Of a DNA stretch of 28,060 bases, positions 8,740 through 28,059 are shown one piece after another. Position numbers and translations under genes: made by a program. Origin of the DNA: a virus. How positions within the stretch are numbered: position 1 is the first letter of the stretch; each line of letters begins with the position of its first letter. A model generated the notes under the pieces. The model was given only the letters and a program-made list of their open reading frames with translations. It was not told the DNA's origin and did not search any database. Location: IMG/VR virus record IMGVR_UViG_3300028844_003317, positions 1 through 28,060 of that record; one strand, written 5' to 3'.

Positions 8740-10347
8740 TTAAAATACCGTACTGTTGAAATAATCATCGTCATCATCGTCTTCAAACTGTATAAATGTA
8801 CCATCTTCACTCTCTATGTAGGTAGTTGGTGTCTCTTCACTAGGTGCAAAAGGCTCAAGCTCTGTTAACATAGAGAACGTATCAGCTACATCATCGTGCT
8901 TAGACTTAAATCCTTTTTTAGTGACGTACTTCAGTTCTTCAAGACATTCTACCATGTACTTAGAACCTTGCATCTCTTTAGGAAGCATCAGTTTCTTAGA
9001 CCTTATCACCGGAAGAAACAACATGAATCTTGAGATCTTCTTGGCAATTGGTCTAATACCTTCTTTATTGCTGTCGAAACCTTTAGCTAGGTTAAAGTAA
9101 ACACGCTTAGATATCATTTCAGCCTTGATCCAAGCAATGAATCCACCTTGCTGACCACTAGCTTCTACACCTACTTCTAGAGGCTTGTACATAGACACAT
9201 ACCTGAACAAATCTGCCAGAGTTTTATCTAGTAGCTGCTGTGCAATCATACCGTCTACCAGTAACCAATCTCCGTTATTACTATAAGCCCATACTGAAAT
9301 TACAGAGTAGTCTGAAGTACTTGTGTCACTGGTTGCAAAATCGGTAGTTATGTAGAAGTTATAACTGCTTTTGTTCTTTAGAACTTCTTCTCTACTGTAC
9401 CATACTAGGTCATCGTCATTAACTAGTCTGTCTTCATCACTTGTTATTCTCAACATCAACTCCTGATCGAATGCTGGTAACTCACCACTTTCTTTAAGGC
9501 TGTAGTACTCGTGTCTTACGAATGAGTATGGAAATCTATCTTCCCAAGCACCACGAAATTCTTCTTCTGAACACGGAAACTTTTCACACAGTGGGTATAT
9601 TTTAGTGTTCCAAGAGGTAGACTCAGTAGCACCATATAATGGGTCTTGCTTGTTGAACGGTGTACCTGTCCAATTCATCATACGCTTCTTAGGGTGTAAA
9701 CACTGCCTTGCAGCACGGTATAAAACTTTCTTTATATCCTCAACGATAGTAGCTGACTCAGCATTCTTATCAGACATTAAATCATCTAGACCTAACCAAG
9801 TAGGACGTTTGCCATATTTCTTAAATCCACGAACACCTGTATTAGCACCAAAACCTTTTACGAAAAATCTTTTACCGTCAACGTTCTCAAATTCCCATTC
9901 TGAGTCAATGAACTTAGTCCAAGGCACATACTTTTGAAGAAAGTCAGAATGCTCCCAACGATACTGCAAGTTTTGACGCATAGACTTTATACCATTGTCT
10001 ATTGTGTCAGCCACATACATTGCTACATCAACGTCACCAAATCCGTCTATCTCACCGTACACTGCAATATATAAAAACATATACTCATGTATTACAGATG
10101 TTTTAGCACCACCACGAAAGCATACGAATAAGTTCTGTCTAGACTCAGTTAGTGTATCCAACATGTCATAATGAAACACTGGTGAAGTATTCTCCTCACC
10201 TAATGACCCATTCACAAGCTTTATAAAAGCTATAAATTTTAATGCGAATCTAGTAGGTACATAACCTTCAGAAAATCTAGAGTAGTCAATATGTTTTAAC
10301 TGCTCCTCTAAGTCCATCTTAGATTCTTTAGTTATAGTAGTAGCCAC
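8740..10347 (-). CDS. terL: Terminase large subunit (packaging ATPase-nuclease)
   Basis: The motor that pumps DNA through the portal and cuts concatemers. The ATPase domain shows Walker A as CFRGGAKTS (about residues 77-85) and Walker B as WLGLDDLM (about 184-190), followed by the coupling-type NWTGTPF. The RNase H-like nuclease has its acidic residues in ITTDFATSDTSTSDYS, EVGVEASGQQ and KHDDVADTF. Length (about 535) fits N4 gp68. The start is uncertain. GTG at 10347 overlaps the upstream stop as TAGTG, like other junctions here, and is suitably spaced from GGGGAG. GTG at 10359 sits too close to that site, and ATG at 10317 has a weaker one. The C-terminus is strongly acidic (DDDDDD). Confidence 0.93.
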   Translation of the reverse strand: MATTITKESKMDLEEQLKHIDYSRFSEGYVPTRFALKFIAFIKLVNGSLGEENTSPVFHYDMLDTLTESRQNLFVCFRGGAKTSVIHEYMFLYIAVYGEIDGFGDVDVAMYVADTIDNGIKSMRQNLQYRWEHSDFLQKYVPWTKFIDSEWEFENVDGKRFFVKGFGANTGVRGFKKYGKRPTWLGLDDLMSDKNAESATIVEDIKKVLYRAARQCLHPKKRMMNWTGTPFNKQDPLYGATESTSWNTKIYPLCEKFPCSEEEFRGAWEDRFPYSFVRHEYYSLKESGELPAFDQELMLRITSDEDRLVNDDDLVWYSREEVLKNKSSYNFYITTDFATSDTSTSDYSVISVWAYSNNGDWLLVDGMIAQQLLDKTLADLFRYVSMYKPLEVGVEASGQQGGFIAWIKAEMISKRVYFNLAKGFDSNKEGIRPIAKKISRFMLFLPVIRSKKLMLPKEMQGSKYMVECLEELKYVTKKGFKSKHDDVADTFSMLTELEPFAPSEETPTTYIESEDGTFIQFEDDDDDDYFNSTVF

Positions 10348-11204
10348 TAGAAAGTCCACTCCCCAGGTTTAATAGATTCTGTATTCTGCACAACTTTTAC
10401 CGGTTCAGGTGATAGGGTAGGTTCTTCCTTATCTAGCGTAATATCCTCAAATTCACCATCTTCAGGAAAATCTTCATCATCGTAAGCAGTCTCATCTTCA
10501 TCAACTACTTTATTGACTATCTTAGCCTCAATAATGCTTTTTATAGGTATACCAGCTTGTATGCTTTGTTGTTCTCTAACTACCAGACGCTCTGTAGCTT
10601 CCTGTAGTGATGCTATTGCAGACTTAGCACCATCTTCAACTTGGATACTGATAACGTTCTCTTCAAGTGGTTTAAGTTCTTTAATAAGTACTTCACTTGC
10701 TTTCTGTCTAACAAACTCAGACTTACCGTGACGCATTATGTCTGCTTGTTCTAATATCGCTTCATGAAGAAGATGCCTGTGAATTAACTGTACAGGAATT
10801 GTAGCTACTTTGCGTATTTCGTTAACTAGAGCTGTAGCATTGTACCTTGAAGCTTCACCTGTAATATCCTTCTTTTCTTGTCCTCTATCTACACGAGCTT
10901 TGAACCTTTCAGGGAATACTGTTATGTAAGAGTCAGTTATGCTATTACCAGCTTCCATTAGAGAGAAGAACTTAACTGCAGACATATAACCCTTAGAGGT
11001 ATACTTACTATTGCTGCTCAGTATGTTTAAGTGATCTCTATACGTATCAAGAAATTCTTCACCGTAGTCAGGGTCTTCAGCCAACTTAGCAAGTTCTTCT
11101 ACAGTGTCATCACTTATCATGTTGCGTTGTTTAGTACTTAGCTGAGATCGAAGAACGTCTATACTTAGCTTAGGGTTTGTTGCTTTGCTTATTTCTGTTG
11201 TCAT
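10347..11204 (-). CDS. Putative terminase small subunit / packaging partner
   Basis: A 285-residue, largely helical protein immediately upstream of the large terminase and coupled to it. Residues 1-180 are a series of charged helices (for example DDTVEELAKLAEDPDYGEEFLDTYRDH). The last 70 residues are very acidic and low-complexity (DEDETAYDDEDFPEDGEFEDI). The position matches N4 gp69, and small terminases commonly sit here and recognise packaging sites. I see no clear helix-turn-helix, so the assignment rests on location, size and helical content. An alternative is a DNA-packaging accessory protein. Confidence 0.55.
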   Translation of the reverse strand: MTTEISKATNPKLSIDVLRSQLSTKQRNMISDDTVEELAKLAEDPDYGEEFLDTYRDHLNILSSNSKYTSKGYMSAVKFFSLMEAGNSITDSYITVFPERFKARVDRGQEKKDITGEASRYNATALVNEIRKVATIPVQLIHRHLLHEAILEQADIMRHGKSEFVRQKASEVLIKELKPLEENVISIQVEDGAKSAIASLQEATERLVVREQQSIQAGIPIKSIIEAKIVNKVVDEDETAYDDEDFPEDGEFEDITLDKEEPTLSPEPVKVVQNTESIKPGEWTF

Positions 11205-11213
11205 CGTGTTAAC

Positions 11214-11687
11214 CTAAAAAGGAACGTCTTCATCAAAACCACCACTATCAACAGTTGATGGCATTCTTGTAATTATGTATTCGTAGTCTACGCTGTCTAT
11301 GGAGGTACCCTTTAACAGTATACTGTAATCGAAGTTCTTAACGTAGGATATTACTTCATCTACGTCTATATTGCTAAACATCTCCTGTGCACCATCTACT
11401 TTTTTATCTGGTACCCATTTAAACTCTTTAAGCAGACTATGTAGATGTTTCTCTAGCAGTAAAGGAACACCAGTCTCATAGTCCATTCTACATCTAGTAT
11501 GTGGAACATACCGATACTTCATGAACCAAGATCTAAGTATCTCCATCATCCTGTCTGCAGATCGTGGTGAGTGAGTCATACCTATTTTGTATATGACATC
11601 ACCACTCTGTAAGGTTATCTCAAGAACGTAAACTCTACCATTACTGGCAGAGTGTTTTAGTGCTTTCGAATTCCTTTTAGCAAACAT
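11214..11687 (-). CDS. GIY-YIG-like (T5orf172/MUG113-type) protein
   Basis: A 157-residue protein whose N-terminal half fits the T5orf172/MUG113 branch of the GIY-YIG superfamily. GRVYVLEI (about 17-24) and VIYKIGMT (about 31-38) correspond to the two strands carrying GIY and YIG, followed by a helix with Arg in SPRSADRMMEILRSW. A conserved Glu is expected later; LLEKHLHSLL is the candidate. This branch is often found in phage and is only sometimes an active nuclease. The C-terminus ends acidic with a hydrophobic tip (DEDVPF). Its ATG overlaps the stop of the Tad2-like gene by one base (TAATG) and it is nine bases from the small terminase gene. A role in DNA processing is inference. Confidence 0.65.
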   Translation of the reverse strand: MFAKRNSKALKHSASNGRVYVLEITLQSGDVIYKIGMTHSPRSADRMMEILRSWFMKYRYVPHTRCRMDYETGVPLLLEKHLHSLLKEFKWVPDKKVDGAQEMFSNIDVDEVISYVKNFDYSILLKGTSIDSVDYEYIITRMPSTVDSGGFDEDVPF

Positions 11688-12385
11688 TAGTTTTTGTTTA
11701 TATTAAGATGGTAGATTCGTCGGCCTAAAGTTGATAGGTATGAGTTCATATCACCTAACTGCTGGTGCAAGTACAGTTGTTGAGTGTTATCTATACCAGA
11801 AAACTTTTCACTGTGCGTGAATGCTGTCAGTTTATCGACTTTATCTTGCAATGTACTTTCTTCTTCTTTCAGTCTGTCTTCGAAAGTGGCTTCTTCATAG
11901 ATACACCAATCTTCAGCTAAAGCATCACCACAACTTGGAGACCATGTCGCTATAGTACCTTTAGCAGTTCTAATGGCTAGGTATCCATCGTAAGGAACCA
12001 TATCGTCAGGGAACATACCGCTAACAGGAGAATTAGGGTTCTGTGCAGCAAAGTAAGAATTTGGCTGTACAAGATACACAAACATGTCTGCTCCATTCCA
12101 GCCTTTACGTGAAACTTTTAAACCATTCTTAACTAGAACTATCGCATCACCTAGAGACATGCTACCAGATGTTTTAAACCCCTCATAAAACACGTTAGTA
12201 GGTACCCAGGATATGTAACCAATCTCACCTTCTACGTTAGTTTCGCTGCTGTTAAGGTCTTGTATGAGAAATCCACTATCACTACCATTCTCATCTGAAG
12301 GAAGCTCCCAGCCACGAAATTCATTGTACTCAGACCTTGTCATAGGCTTTGACGATACTGCTTTACTTACTACAGCTAAACTCAT
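11687..12385 (-). CDS. Three-part phage protein with central Tad2-like (DUF2829) domain
   Basis: A 232-residue protein with three segments. Residues about 10-75 (MTRSEYNEFRGWELPSDENG, then GYISWVPTNVFYEGF) match an N-terminal module often seen before DUF2829 in phages. Residues about 76-164 match DUF2829, now also called Tad2-like: MSLGDAIVLVKNGLKVSRKG, the RKGWNGADMFVYLV core, then YLAIRTAKGTIATWSPS and LAEDWCIYEE. Tad2 proteins bind the cyclic-ADPR-type signal of Thoeris defence and so block it. Residues about 170-232 form a helical tail common to phage proteins of this group. The ATG at 12385 has GGAGA seven bases upstream and overlaps the previous stop as ATGA, so the longer frame from 12415 is rejected. 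Anti-defence activity is inferred, not shown; the middle of the domain has a longer insertion than minimal Tad2. Confidence 0.8.
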   Translation of the reverse strand: MSLAVVSKAVSSKPMTRSEYNEFRGWELPSDENGSDSGFLIQDLNSSETNVEGEIGYISWVPTNVFYEGFKTSGSMSLGDAIVLVKNGLKVSRKGWNGADMFVYLVQPNSYFAAQNPNSPVSGMFPDDMVPYDGYLAIRTAKGTIATWSPSCGDALAEDWCIYEEATFEDRLKEEESTLQDKVDKLTAFTHSEKFSGIDNTQQLYLHQQLGDMNSYLSTLGRRIYHLNINKN

Positions 12386-12720
12386 TTGCAATTCTCCATT
12401 TCGGCTAAGTGGCACTTAAGGCGATAACCTTCAAGCTTATACAGTTCATCTTTTGCAGAGTTAAGACATTTAGCTTTACCATATTTAACACCTAACTCAG
12501 CGTTAAAGTTAGCTGGGTCTGCACAGGCCATTACTTCAGTGCACAAACTAAAACCGTTACGATCGAATGCAGTCACTATGGTAGAAGTTGTACCTTCAGG
12601 TTGGCTGATATGGAAAGTTACATCTAGCAATAACTCTTCTATTGCTTCAGGAGTCACACGAGGAGCAGTTAGTTCTAGTTTACCGATGTCTGCTTCCATG
12701 TCGTTATCGTATTCTTTCAT
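12382..12720 (-). CDS. N4 gp49 / Sf6 gp66 family protein
   Basis: A 112-residue protein. The signature of the N4 gp49/phage Sf6 gene 66 family is clear in the C-terminal half: FSLCTEVMACADPANFNAEL, then GVKYGKAKCLNSAKDEL and LYKLEGYRLKCHL (about 57-105). Family members are small cytoplasmic phage proteins of unknown function. The ATG at 12720 is preceded by AAAGGA at good spacing; a longer frame from 12783 has no ribosome site and crosses an inverted repeat, so I reject it. The stop overlaps the next ATG (ATGA), coupling it to the Tad2-like gene. The N4 family link supports the phage assignment. Confidence 0.85.
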   Translation of the reverse strand: MKEYDNDMEADIGKLELTAPRVTPEAIEELLLDVTFHISQPEGTTSTIVTAFDRNGFSLCTEVMACADPANFNAELGVKYGKAKCLNSAKDELYKLEGYRLKCHLAEMENCK

Positions 12721-12836: not shown

Positions 12837-13232
12837 TTAGTTCTCTTCCCATTGTCTGAATAGTACGGCACCTTTGTTTTGATTTCCGTGTCTCAGTAAA
12901 CTAGGGGATAACATGTACACACCATTATGTACTTTCTTTAACAAATCCTTTTTATATAGTTTTTGAAACAGTGTCGATACTGTAGGAACTGTGGTGTTGC
13001 ATTCTTTAGCTATAACAGCAAAAGTACCTATAATCCTGTTGTTAGAATCTTTGTTACTAATCAACCAAGCTAATATTGTGCTGGTAGCTGTACCAGTAAC
13101 ACCAATATACTCAGCTAATACTTTAGCATATGCTCTTTCCCAGTACGCCTTAGGTATCATTTCAATGAACATATCGACTGGCACTGCTTCACCAGTACGG
13201 TTGTTTACCATTGTGTAAGTATCTTCAGTCAC
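12837..13232 (-). CDS. RepL-like winged-helix replication/regulatory protein
   Basis: A protein of about 131 residues with the outline of the RepL family (replication proteins of small plasmids, also found scattered in phage). It has an N-terminal NRTGEAVPVDMFIEMIPK, helices KVLAEYIGVTGTATSTILAW, then a winged helix with NRIIGTFAVIAKECNTTVPT (recognition helix VSTLFQKLYKKDLLKKV) and the wing NGVYMLSPSLLRHG. Such proteins bind DNA at an origin or operator. The start is uncertain. No ATG precedes 13211, yet the conserved NRTGE segment follows it almost at once, so GTG at 13232 is chosen; it also overlaps the end of the upstream 58-residue gene. In this phage it could act as a transcription regulator instead. 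Confidence 0.6.
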   Translation of the reverse strand: MTEDTYTMVNNRTGEAVPVDMFIEMIPKAYWERAYAKVLAEYIGVTGTATSTILAWLISNKDSNNRIIGTFAVIAKECNTTVPTVSTLFQKLYKKDLLKKVHNGVYMLSPSLLRHGNQNKGAVLFRQWEEN

Positions 13233-13401
13233 TTTCTTTAACCATTGATTCGTAGTTAGCCATAGTAACCATACATTCTGCAATCACCTTGGCATTGTGT
13301 ACCAGTACTGTAGCATACTCCTCCTTATCAGTTATTTCAGCTCTTGATATAAAGCTGTTTACAATACGTTTTGCGTTATCTACATCGAATTCTGTTTTCA
13401 T
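13225..13401 (-). CDS. Small hypothetical protein upstream of RepL-like gene
   Basis: A 58-residue frame starting MKTEFDVDNAKRIVNSFISR with ATG at 13401 and AAAGGG nine bases upstream, ending TGA at 13227-13225. It is probably helical throughout and acidic at its end (YESMVKESD). It overlaps the start of the RepL-like gene by a few bases in another frame, the coupling pattern used all along this arm. No family is recognised. It could be a partner or regulator of the RepL-like protein, but nothing in the sequence proves that. Confidence 0.65.
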   Translation of the reverse strand: MKTEFDVDNAKRIVNSFISRAEITDKEEYATVLVHNAKVIAECMVTMANYESMVKESD

Positions 13402-20485: not shown

Positions 20486-21337
20486 ATGTTACAGTACTTA
20501 GATCTATGTAGAAGAATTATAAACGAAGGTGAGTGGGTCAGTAACGTACGTACTGGAAAGTCTTGCCTTACATTAATTAATCATGACTTAACTTATCATG
20601 TTGATCGTGGTGAGTTTCCTTTAGTGACTACCCGTAAGAGTTACTGGAAACCTGCACTAATGGAAATGCTAGGTTATCTTCGTGGTTACAGTAGTGCTGC
20701 ACAATTCCGTGCTATTGGCTGTAACACTTGGAATGCTAATGCCAACGATAATAAAGCTTGGTTACGTAATCCTAATCGTTCTGGTGTAGATGACATTGGT
20801 AGAGCTTATGGCGTACAAGCCCGTGAATGGACTAACAGCAAAGGTGAAGTATTTGACCAGCTTAGAAAGGTTTACAATAACCTTAAGCAAGGTATCGATG
20901 ATCGATTTGAGATCATTAACTTCTATAACCCAGGTGAAATTGAAGAAGGTTGCTTACGTCCTTGCATGTATAGTCACCACTTCTCACTTGTTAACGGTAC
21001 TCTTCACTTAAATAGTACTCAACGTAGTTGCGACGTTATGTTAGGCCTCAACTTCAACATGGTTCAGTGTTATTTCTTGTTAGCTGTAATGGCTAAGATA
21101 ACTGGTAATAAGCCCGGTAAGGTTTATCACAAGATCGTTAATGCTCACATTTATGAAGATCAAGTTGATCTAGTGAAGAACGTACAGTTAATGCGTACTC
21201 CTTACGGTATTCCGTCATTCCATATATCTGATAAAATCGATAATCTTGATTACCTTCTTAATGAAGCTACGGTAGATGATTTTACAGTAAGTGGTTATGA
21301 ACATCATGAACCTATTAAATACCCTTTCTCAGTATAA
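20486..21337 (+). CDS. thyA: Thymidylate synthase
   Basis: Converts dUMP to dTMP with methylene-tetrahydrofolate, giving dihydrofolate. The 283-residue protein has the catalytic Cys160 in [10 protein letters not shown], the phosphate-binding [12 protein letters not shown], Asn191 in LGLNFNM (the Asn that selects dUMP rather than dCMP), and the C-terminal [13 protein letters not shown]. Slight length over E. coli ThyA (264) comes from loops. AGGAGCTACT precedes the ATG. The DHFR gene two genes downstream regenerates the folate cofactor, so the two make a dTMP supply cassette for DNA synthesis. The dUMP-type Asn argues against a hydroxymethylase making modified bases. Confidence 0.95.
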
Positions 21338-21629: not shown

Positions 21630-22394
21630 ATGAGTGCTCTTGATTCGTGTAACATAAAATTGTCTGCAATAGCTGCTATTGGTATCAATAATGAGATTGG
21701 TGTTAACGGTGAGCTATTGTGGCACTGTCCTGAAGATCTAAAGATTTTCAAAGAGTTTACTATGGGTAAGGTTCTTATCTGTGGAAGAAAGACATATGAC
21801 AGTATGCCAGAACTTAAAGGCAGAACTGTATGTGTAGTATCTGACACCATCAAAAGCTGTGATCTTCACTGTGGAGATGTGACTATGGCTACTACTGTAT
21901 CACCTCAAGAGTTACTTGTTACCCTTAATGGTGTATTTGGAGGTAAAGAGCTAGTTGTTATAGGTGGAACATCTGTTTACAAATCGTTTGCCAAACTAGT
22001 TACTAACCTTCAATTGACACATATTAATCGTAAGTTTCCTGAAGCTGATACGTTTTTTCCTATCGAAAGATACAGAAATGTTATGTCAGTTAGCAAGGTA
22101 ACTCACATATTCGATGATAATGTATCTAGTAATTATGGTACGCATAACTTAAAGGTAGGTACTCGTTTATGTACTAAAGACGGTAGAGTCATAGGTAATG
22201 CTGTTTTAAGCAGTAGACTGCCGGACGATAGATACACTATTATTACAGATTTCGGTAATAAAATTGAAATGAATAGCTCTGACATAGTAAAGCATTTTTA
22301 CCCTATCAATGACATGGATGGTATGGATGATACGGATCGTTTAAAGAACTGGATAATTGACAGATCTATTCTTATTAATGTTCCTAAAAGTTAG
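21630..22394 (+). CDS. folA: Dihydrofolate reductase with extra C-terminal domain
   Basis: Reduces dihydrofolate to tetrahydrofolate with NADPH, closing the cycle opened by ThyA. Residues about 9-155 form the DHFR domain: NNEIGVNGELLWHCPEDL holds Trp31 and Asp36 (E. coli W22 and D27), KVLICGRKTYDSMPEL the NADPH-binding GRxTxxS, and VIGGTSVYKSFA the GGxxVY loop. Usual length is about 160. Another 90 residues follow: VGTRLCTKDGRVIGNAVLS and ITDFGNKIEMNSSDIVKHFY look like a small beta-barrel unit also seen in other phage proteins. AGGAGATAAT precedes the ATG. The extra domain's role is not known; nucleic-acid or partner binding is plausible. Confidence 0.92.
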   Translation: MSALDSCNIKLSAIAAIGINNEIGVNGELLWHCPEDLKIFKEFTMGKVLICGRKTYDSMPELKGRTVCVVSDTIKSCDLHCGDVTMATTVSPQELLVTLNGVFGGKELVVIGGTSVYKSFAKLVTNLQLTHINRKFPEADTFFPIERYRNVMSVSKVTHIFDDNVSSNYGTHNLKVGTRLCTKDGRVIGNAVLSSRLPDDRYTIITDFGNKIEMNSSDIVKHFYPINDMDGMDDTDRLKNWIIDRSILINVPKS

Positions 22395-26512: not shown

Positions 26513-27493
26513 ATGATTAGTGATATTGAAATTACACCAAAAAACAAATTGATAGCTGGTATATGTATGGGTATATTGGCTTTTTTTACTTTTATACTAG
26601 TTATTAACACTTTCACGGTGGTAGACGCTGGTACAACTAAAGTTCAGACAACACTCGGCACTGTCAACATGACACCTTACAGCGAAGGTTTACATTTTCC
26701 TGTAAATCCTTTTTCAAGTTTTGATTCTATGGATACTCGTAACAGTAAGTATGAAGTAGACGGTCTTAACATTCCCACTCAGGATAGATTTAATTCTACA
26801 GGTAATGTCACTGTTCTATACAGAATACAAGCTGCTAAAACACCAGCTATTAAAAAAGACTATGGCACTGTTAAAGAGTACATCGCTAAAACTTTAAGAC
26901 AACATCTCAGATCAATTATTAGAGATGAAGGTCGTAAGTTGCTGGATAGTAGAAGCTTATCTAGTTCTAGTCATGTCACAAATATGCAGGTAAATAGTAA
27001 GCTACGTCTGTCTGAAGCTTTAGTTGATACCGGTATAATTGTGCAAGATGTACTTATACAGGACATTGTATTTGATCCTCGTATCGCTGCTCAGATACTT
27101 CAAACACAAATTCGTATTCAGGAAGAAGAGGCTACAATCTCTAAGAAACGTATTACTATCACTAATGCAGAAATAGCATTAGAGACAGCTAAAGGTGTAT
27201 CTGATGCTAAAGAAACTGCAGCTGATGCTGAATCTTACCGTGTAACTAAGTTAGCTGAAGCGGATAAGCAATCAGCTATACTTCGTGCTGAAGGTGAGGC
27301 TGAAAGTATAAAACTTATTGCTGATGCTAATAATAAGTTGTCACTTTCACTAACCCCTGAAATTATCGAAAAGTACAGATTAGAGAATGAAGCTATTCTG
27401 TACTCTAAGTCGGTAGGTAACGTGCCTACTACAATAATTGGTGATACTAATTTACGTGCTATCGGTATCCCATCAGCAATTCTAAGTGAGTAA
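26513..27493 (+). CDS. SPFH (stomatin/prohibitin-like) membrane protein
   Basis: A 326-residue protein with an N-terminal membrane segment (about 13-32), then an SPFH domain. VDAGTTKVQTTLGTVNMTPY and YSEGLHFPVNPFSS match the opening of prohibitin/stomatin proteins, as do RFNSTGNVTVLYRI and VLIQDIVFDPRIAAQI. A long coiled coil (about 200-280; QIRIQEEEATISKKRI, ADAESYRVTKLAEADKQSA, LRAEGEAESIKLIADANNKL) precedes a short C-terminus. SPFH proteins assemble into rings at membranes, often with proteases such as FtsH/HflKC. In phages they are accessory and of unknown role. AAAGGAAACAGT precedes the ATG. The MazG-like gene follows after 8 bases. Confidence 0.88.
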   Translation: MISDIEITPKNKLIAGICMGILAFFTFILVINTFTVVDAGTTKVQTTLGTVNMTPYSEGLHFPVNPFSSFDSMDTRNSKYEVDGLNIPTQDRFNSTGNVTVLYRIQAAKTPAIKKDYGTVKEYIAKTLRQHLRSIIRDEGRKLLDSRSLSSSSHVTNMQVNSKLRLSEALVDTGIIVQDVLIQDIVFDPRIAAQILQTQIRIQEEEATISKKRITITNAEIALETAKGVSDAKETAADAESYRVTKLAEADKQSAILRAEGEAESIKLIADANNKLSLSLTPEIIEKYRLENEAILYSKSVGNVPTTIIGDTNLRAIGIPSAILSE

Positions 27494-27501
27494 CTTATAA
27501 C

Positions 27502-28059
27502 ATGACAAATTTTGATGATGTAGGCGTATTCCACAAGTTAGCAGGTCATCCTGTAAATAACAGTCGAAATGCTGAAATGCCACCTCTAAAAACAGTACGT
27601 TTCCGTGAAGACTTCAAAATTGAAGAGCTAGCTGAAGGTATTGAAGCATTAGGTGATTCTGAAAGTATTCGTATACAGGAAACCTTGTACTATTTAAAAA
27701 AAGCCAAAGCATGCTGGAACCGTATTGAAGAAAGTGATCTTGATCCTGATCTAGTGAAGTACGCTGATAGTGTAGGTGACTTAATCTACGTAAGTCATGG
27801 TGCTGCACACTGTTACAACTTCAATGCATCTGATGTATTTGATGAAGTTCACTATAAAAACATGACTCGATTTCCTGAGAACATGGATGAAGTTGAATTA
27901 ACAATTACAAAGGCTGAGTCTGAAGGCGTCAGTGTTGGAGTTAATGAAATACGTGACAGTAATCGTTATGTTGTTAAGCGTATTGATAATGATAAGGTGT
28001 ACAAGAGTGCTATGCACTTATTGCCTGATCTGCATCCAATATTATTTCCTAATAAATAG
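27502..28059 (+). CDS. MazG-like / phosphoribosyl-ATP-pyrophosphatase-like NTP pyrophosphatase
   Basis: A 185-residue protein of the all-alpha NTP-PPase fold. VGVFHKLAGHPVN opens the domain. EELAEGIEAL (E41, E42, E45) is the first metal motif, and YADSVGDLIYVSHGAA (D89, D93) the second, followed by CYNFNASDVFDEVHYKNMTR. Such enzymes hydrolyse NTPs or dNTPs to monophosphates, and phage versions may adjust nucleotide or alarmone pools. It is only 8 bases after the SPFH gene, so the two are probably co-expressed. The ribosome site is weak. The residues after about 130 form a separate small part (ITKAESEGVSVGVNEIRD). The stop (28,057-28,059) is one base from the window end. Confidence 0.85.
   Translation: MTNFDDVGVFHKLAGHPVNNSRNAEMPPLKTVRFREDFKIEELAEGIEALGDSESIRIQETLYYLKKAKACWNRIEESDLDPDLVKYADSVGDLIYVSHGAAHCYNFNASDVFDEVHYKNMTRFPENMDEVELTITKAESEGVSVGVNEIRDSNRYVVKRIDNDKVYKSAMHLLPDLHPILFPNK

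Follow-up and report, generated by a model that had tools for sequence, protein, structure and literature searches.

Closest described systems

Among the closest known relatives of the locus considered here are stand-alone Tad2 proteins. ModTad2, from a Myroides odoratus prophage, is a protein of 88-89 aa with two deposited structures (PDB 8v3e, and 9eib with hisADPR); for MoTad2, binding of His-ADPR and thereby inhibition of type II Thoeris have been reported (PMC13299392). Phage SPO1 encodes another stand-alone Tad2, gp34.65 (PDB 8sme-8smg), as well as Acb4, an anti-CBASS sponge of family PF13876 (structure 9E4W; PMC11722364). All eight Acb4 homologues that were tested bound 3'3'-cGAMP (PMC11722364). 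Both SPO1 proteins have experimental support, and they are unlinked, lying about 108 kb apart on the SPO1 record. According to a review of the family, the Tad2 pocket is built by the β1-β2 loop, β4, the β4-α3 loop and α3 of different protomers, and binding of cyclic dinucleotides depends on an insertion between β2 and β5 (PMC12043709). We found no report linking Acb4 and Tad2 among the open-access papers searched, and earlier reports elsewhere are possible.

The window analysed here is a 28,060-nt stretch of viral DNA (IMG/VR record IMGVR_UViG_3300028844_003317, positions 1 to 28,060). Within it, an Acb4-family gene (12382-12720, minus strand, 112 aa) overlaps the downstream gene for a three-module protein with a Tad2-like domain (11687-12385, minus strand). 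Taken together, the two genes probably form a counter-defence cassette in an N4-like phage. The same order is found in Escherichia phage N4, in which a PF13876/Acb4 gene is followed directly by an RGW+Tad2 gene (gp48-gp49); unlike the window protein, N4 gp49 has no fused C48 module, and the N4 pair adjoins the gene for the virion RNA polymerase, which lies on the opposite strand.

A Tad2-like domain between two recurrent modules

Read from an inner ATG, the three-module protein has 232 aa, and this ATG overlaps the stop of the upstream gene as ATGA, which couples the two genes; an alternative GTG start at 12415 gives an ORF of 11687-12415 (minus strand). A reading of the sequence alone had described three parts, the middle one Tad2-like, and this layout proved real. 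The middle domain (11900-12160, minus strand) matches PF11195 at 71.7 bits, the cut-off being 25 (E 7e-20; residues 86-172 if counted from the GTG, 76-162 if counted from the ATG), and its homology to Tad2 is strongly supported by PDB sequence and fold matches as well. It is followed by C48 (11714-11887, minus strand), a helical hairpin related to crAss001_48, which matches PF21825 with 52.1 bits against a cut-off of 24.8 (E 6e-14; residues 177-234 of the GTG form, 167-224 of the ATG form). The N-terminal module, here called RGW (12176-12373, minus strand), has the motifs RGW.LP..E and GY[IV]SWSP. It corresponds to the N-terminal part of phrog_872, a phrog that covers residues 15-172 and so holds RGW and Tad2 together, and it is shared with N4 gp49.

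In an AlphaFold monomer model (pLDDT 91.7, pTM 0.71, from a 75-row alignment), the Tad2 fold lies between a small α/β domain of order β-α-β-β-α, which is RGW, and a hairpin of two long antiparallel helices, which is C48. The roughly 70 N-terminal residues matched no Pfam family and no PDB entry. Neither RGW nor C48 had a convincing match among PDB sequences; in fold searches C48 matched generic helical hairpins only and the RGW part was hardly probed, and PADLOC returned no result for the whole protein. In a profile comparison with the Acb2/Tad1 hairpin (PF24729), C48 gave neither a Pfam match nor an hhalign signal against T4 Acb2. C48 also stands alone in other phages: it is found in T4-like phages, for example at 166086-166256 of phage UFV-AREG1, where it is annotated denB.1, and K4MPY1 of the N4-like phage IME11 is a C48-like protein of 67 aa.

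Several known proteins come close to this layout. In Achromobacter phage Axy13_069 and Pseudomonas phage inbricus, RGW is likewise N-terminal and C48 C-terminal, whereas the domain between them is Acb4 (PF13876) and not Tad2; both proteins are encoded directly upstream of terS/terL. A Tad2-like protein of Podoviridae sp. ctzeq1 (BFVD A0A8S5M092, 270 aa) aligns with the window protein over 264 columns (E 5.9e-15, 24% identity), and this whole-protein alignment suggests that it possibly has the same three parts. The flanking parts, a separate module and a helical C-terminus as the sequence-only reading described, are not peculiar to this protein; both are recurrent partners.

Fold, clade and likely ligand of the Tad2 domain

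Structure prediction returned the Tad2 fold for the middle domain, with Z 12-13 to SptTad2, SPO1 Tad2 and ModTad2, far above unrelated matches to this part, and with the motifs of the pocket loops kept. Hgm/AcrIIA7 Tad2 structures were among the fold matches in the same range (Z 12-13). ModTad2 with hisADPR is the nearest solved structure by both sequence and fold: 9eib was the best PDB match in phmmer (E 6.9e-17), 9eib_B was matched by Foldseek (E 4.5e-8), and identity over the domain is about 43-46%. In a tree of 91 Tad2 domains, in which many forks stay open, the window domain and ModTad2 share a clade of 33 rows (support 99/98), and SPO1 Tad2 and 8kbi fall outside it. SPO1 Tad2 therefore shares fold and family with the window domain but belongs to a different clade.

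In the regions that line the pocket, the window domain keeps the invariant motifs, with GWNG, W148, S151, D154 and LAEDW present, and the motifs GWNG, W.PS and LAEDW are common to it and ModTad2. Over the pocket loops, as taken from the review's description, it is identical to ModTad2 at 18/26 positions and to SPO1 Tad2 at 16/26. The segment from GWNG to the W-S motif has 47 residues in the window, compared to 43 in ModTad2 and SPO1 Tad2 and 61 in 8kbi, and its shortness argues against the long insertion that is tied to cyclic dinucleotide binding. Given the kept motifs, the short segment, the kinship with ModTad2 and the report on MoTad2, the likeliest ligand would be an ADP-ribose signal, perhaps the His-ADPR of type II Thoeris. 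The ligand first proposed, 1''-3' gcADPR, is less likely than His-ADPR since the domain groups with ModTad2. The tip branch of the window domain is long (1.03), so its ligand may have shifted.

It is unlikely that the domain binds cyclic dinucleotides as SptTad2 and HgmTad2 do, in which case both genes would be directed against CBASS and Thoeris would be left untouched. One of the best structural matches is indeed SptTad2 with cGG (Z 13.0), and redundancy against CBASS would fit the pairing of a Tad2 with an anti-CBASS Acb4. The short segment between the motifs and the placement with ModTad2 speak against it, as does SPO1 Tad2, which has a segment of similar length and does not bind 3'3'-cGAMP (PMC11722364).

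The overlapping Acb4-family gene

The sequence-only reading overlooked the Acb4-family gene next to the Tad2 gene. That gene matches PF13876 (Phage_gp49_66) with 47 bits against a cut-off of 27 (E 3.8e-12). On its own, the window gene retrieved no PDB chain with phmmer and no relatives in a single-sequence search of viral contigs. The profile of the Acb4 family matches 9e4w (E 1.4e-8), and a model of a homologue (L029), made from an alignment that includes the window gene, has the order H-E-E-E-H with Z 7.1 to 9e4w_N; this α-β-β-β-α order is dsRBD-like and the same as that of 9e4w. Among the residues with which SPO1 Acb4 contacts cGAMP, F48, F62 and N63 are kept in the homologue and I66 is present as L; the two residues that contact guanine, K36 and E49, are replaced by T and S in the alignment. 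Given the Pfam match, the profile and the topology, the two overlapping genes of the window are predicted to encode sponges against two signalling systems.

Genomic setting

The terminase large subunit gene (8740-10359, minus strand; phrog_38, E 1e-76) is preceded by a candidate for the small subunit (10347-11204, minus strand; phrog_2109, E 1e-46), named after a gene beside terL in phage Philippe that carries this annotation. Between terS and the cassette lies a T5orf172/GIY-YIG-like gene (11214-11687, minus strand; PF10544, E 4e-5), which is conserved at this position in Alteromonas phage R22Y and is probably not part of the cassette. The genes for terL, terS, portal and adaptor resemble those of N4-like phages (Schitoviridae). 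The giant virion RNA polymerase gene was not seen within the 28-kb fragment, no clear short-loop GC-rich hairpin promoter of the N4 type was evident, and promoter-like and terminator-like sites were no more frequent than in shuffled sequences. In Vibrio phages 1.238.A and 1.238.B the terL region carries the annotation 'hint domain protein', suggesting that terL contains an intein there.

The Tad2 gene does lie in the leftward arm beside packaging genes, as had been described from the sequence, 0.5 kb upstream of terS/terL, but such a place is common and not odd for the subfamily: a terminase gene is found within about 2.6 kb in 6 of the 9 annotated Tad2-carrying records that were examined, the exceptions being N4, AP1 and SPO1. 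In two of the closest relatives the content of the slot differs. Related phage R22Y has Acb4 and a C48-like gene upstream of terS, in PT11-V19 Acb4 lies where the record ends, and both are without Tad2. From these differences, the slot seems to be an accessory position whose content varies, situated where the leftward arm begins and near its divergence from the rightward arm.

The neighbourhood of terS/terL, here and in several phages, could also mean that the Tad2 domain is a structural remnant in a protein that serves some other late function, for instance in packaging or lysis, and the long tip branch would fit such a remnant. We regard this as improbable: the motifs lining the pocket are kept, the cassette is also found far from terminase genes in N4, and its partners change freely.

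Upstream of the cassette, 12837-13283 (minus strand) encodes a RepL-like winged-helix protein, RepL being normally a replication family of Firmicute plasmids; R22Y has two similar small helix-turn-helix genes in this place. Further along, a thymidylate synthase gene (20486-21337) adjoins one for a dihydrofolate reductase (21630-22394, plus strand) with an extra C-terminal stretch that matches phrog_9905, and at 26513-28059 (plus strand) an SPFH/Band 7 protein is directly followed by a MazG-like nucleotide pyrophosphohydrolase.

Recurrent linkage of the modules in viral contigs

Profiles of five modules (RGW, Tad2, C48, Acb4, the last labelled G49, and HLP) were run over loci from separate scans. 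The samples were similarity-ranked and contain redundancy, so that the proportions are not population frequencies: among 93 contigs anchored on Tad2, 31 had a partner ORF in the fetched flanks, and of the 32 partner ORFs in these contigs 30 abut Tad2 (at most 122 nt away) and every one shares its strand; for Acb4, after removal of contigs shared with the Tad2 set, a partner was present in 13 of 75 contigs. All 80 Acb4 loci together had 14 partner ORFs, 13 of them within 150 nt and all 14 on the same strand, and included two direct Acb4+Tad2 fusions. Under an idealised binomial, the odds for adjacency are vanishingly small, though the same limits of sampling apply.

In the 80 loci anchored on RGW, this module was fused to Tad2 in 53, to Acb4 in 8, to C48 in 7 and to two of these in 6; it was adjacent to Acb4 in 1, and 5 had none of the four other modules. 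RGW is therefore fused or adjacent to Tad2, Acb4 or C48 in 75/80 loci, or in 76/80 if a fusion to Acb2 is counted. In this fusion (L311, 1613-2116), one of the five, the partner is a true Acb2, matching PF24729 (E 3e-16) and p26 of the Acb2 structure PDB 8h2j (E 3e-8), and in another locus (L076, 5420-5752) there is a gene for Acb2 (E 1e-16) that overlaps one for RGW+Tad2. With Acb2, the network of fusion and adjacency takes in a third sponge family.

In viral contigs Tad2, Acb4, RGW and C48 are repeatedly joined, by fusion or as abutting genes, and their order varies widely. Phage Philippe has Tad2 alone and then Acb4+RGW+C48, Vibrio phage 1.205.O has C48+Tad2 and RGW+HLP, and phrog_32732 appears to combine Tad2 with C48. 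The order RGW+Tad2+C48 occurred only in the window among the loci examined. HLP itself is a module of about 54 aa (HLPPHLQ...RKLLEAKD) fused to C48 or RGW (L039, 5478-5984; L022, 4327-4749; L080, 6006-6239) and is also present in 364 phage records, actinophages among them. A suspected kinship with Acb2 found no support, since HLP neither matched PF24729 in Pfam nor gave an hhalign signal with T4 Acb2.

That the Tad2 domain is instead an anti-CRISPR of the AcrIIA7 type and not a signal sponge is very improbable: some Tad2-family structures are deposited as AcrIIA7, an inhibitor of type II CRISPR-Cas, and some phage homologues are annotated as anti-CRISPR, but structures named AcrIIA7 also bind cADPR and cGG, and the fused partners are sponges, not Acr proteins.

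A proposed modular counter-defence kit

In the two-sponge cassette that we favour, and by analogy with what is known of the two families, the Acb4 protein would sequester CBASS cyclic dinucleotides, and the Tad2 domain of the fusion, oligomerising probably as a tetramer, would sequester an ADP-ribose-based Thoeris signal, with His-ADPR a likelier ligand than either gcADPR or cyclic dinucleotides. RGW and C48 would be accessory modules that are attached interchangeably to Tad2, Acb4 and Acb2 sponges. That they are common to three unrelated sponge folds suggests a general role in assembly, localisation or extra ligand binding; our best guess is that they make sponge subunits assemble or co-localise, or else bind ligand themselves. 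A bolder and more tentative proposal, which we would not yet favour, is that they serve as general assembly or ligand modules building mixed Tad2/Acb4/Acb2 complexes against several signals. If this were true, a single locus would block Thoeris and CBASS together.

Tad2, Acb4 and Acb2 have so far been described singly. That the same small modules repeatedly link them, fused or side by side, suggests a shared kit, and the shuffling of these modules among three sponge families points to counter-defence that is modular. N4, a standard phage of the laboratory, carries the Acb4/RGW-Tad2 pair as gp48-gp49, which makes the idea of a kit directly testable. The modules also provide a handle for searches: unknown domains found fused to RGW or C48 would be candidates for new counter-defence proteins.
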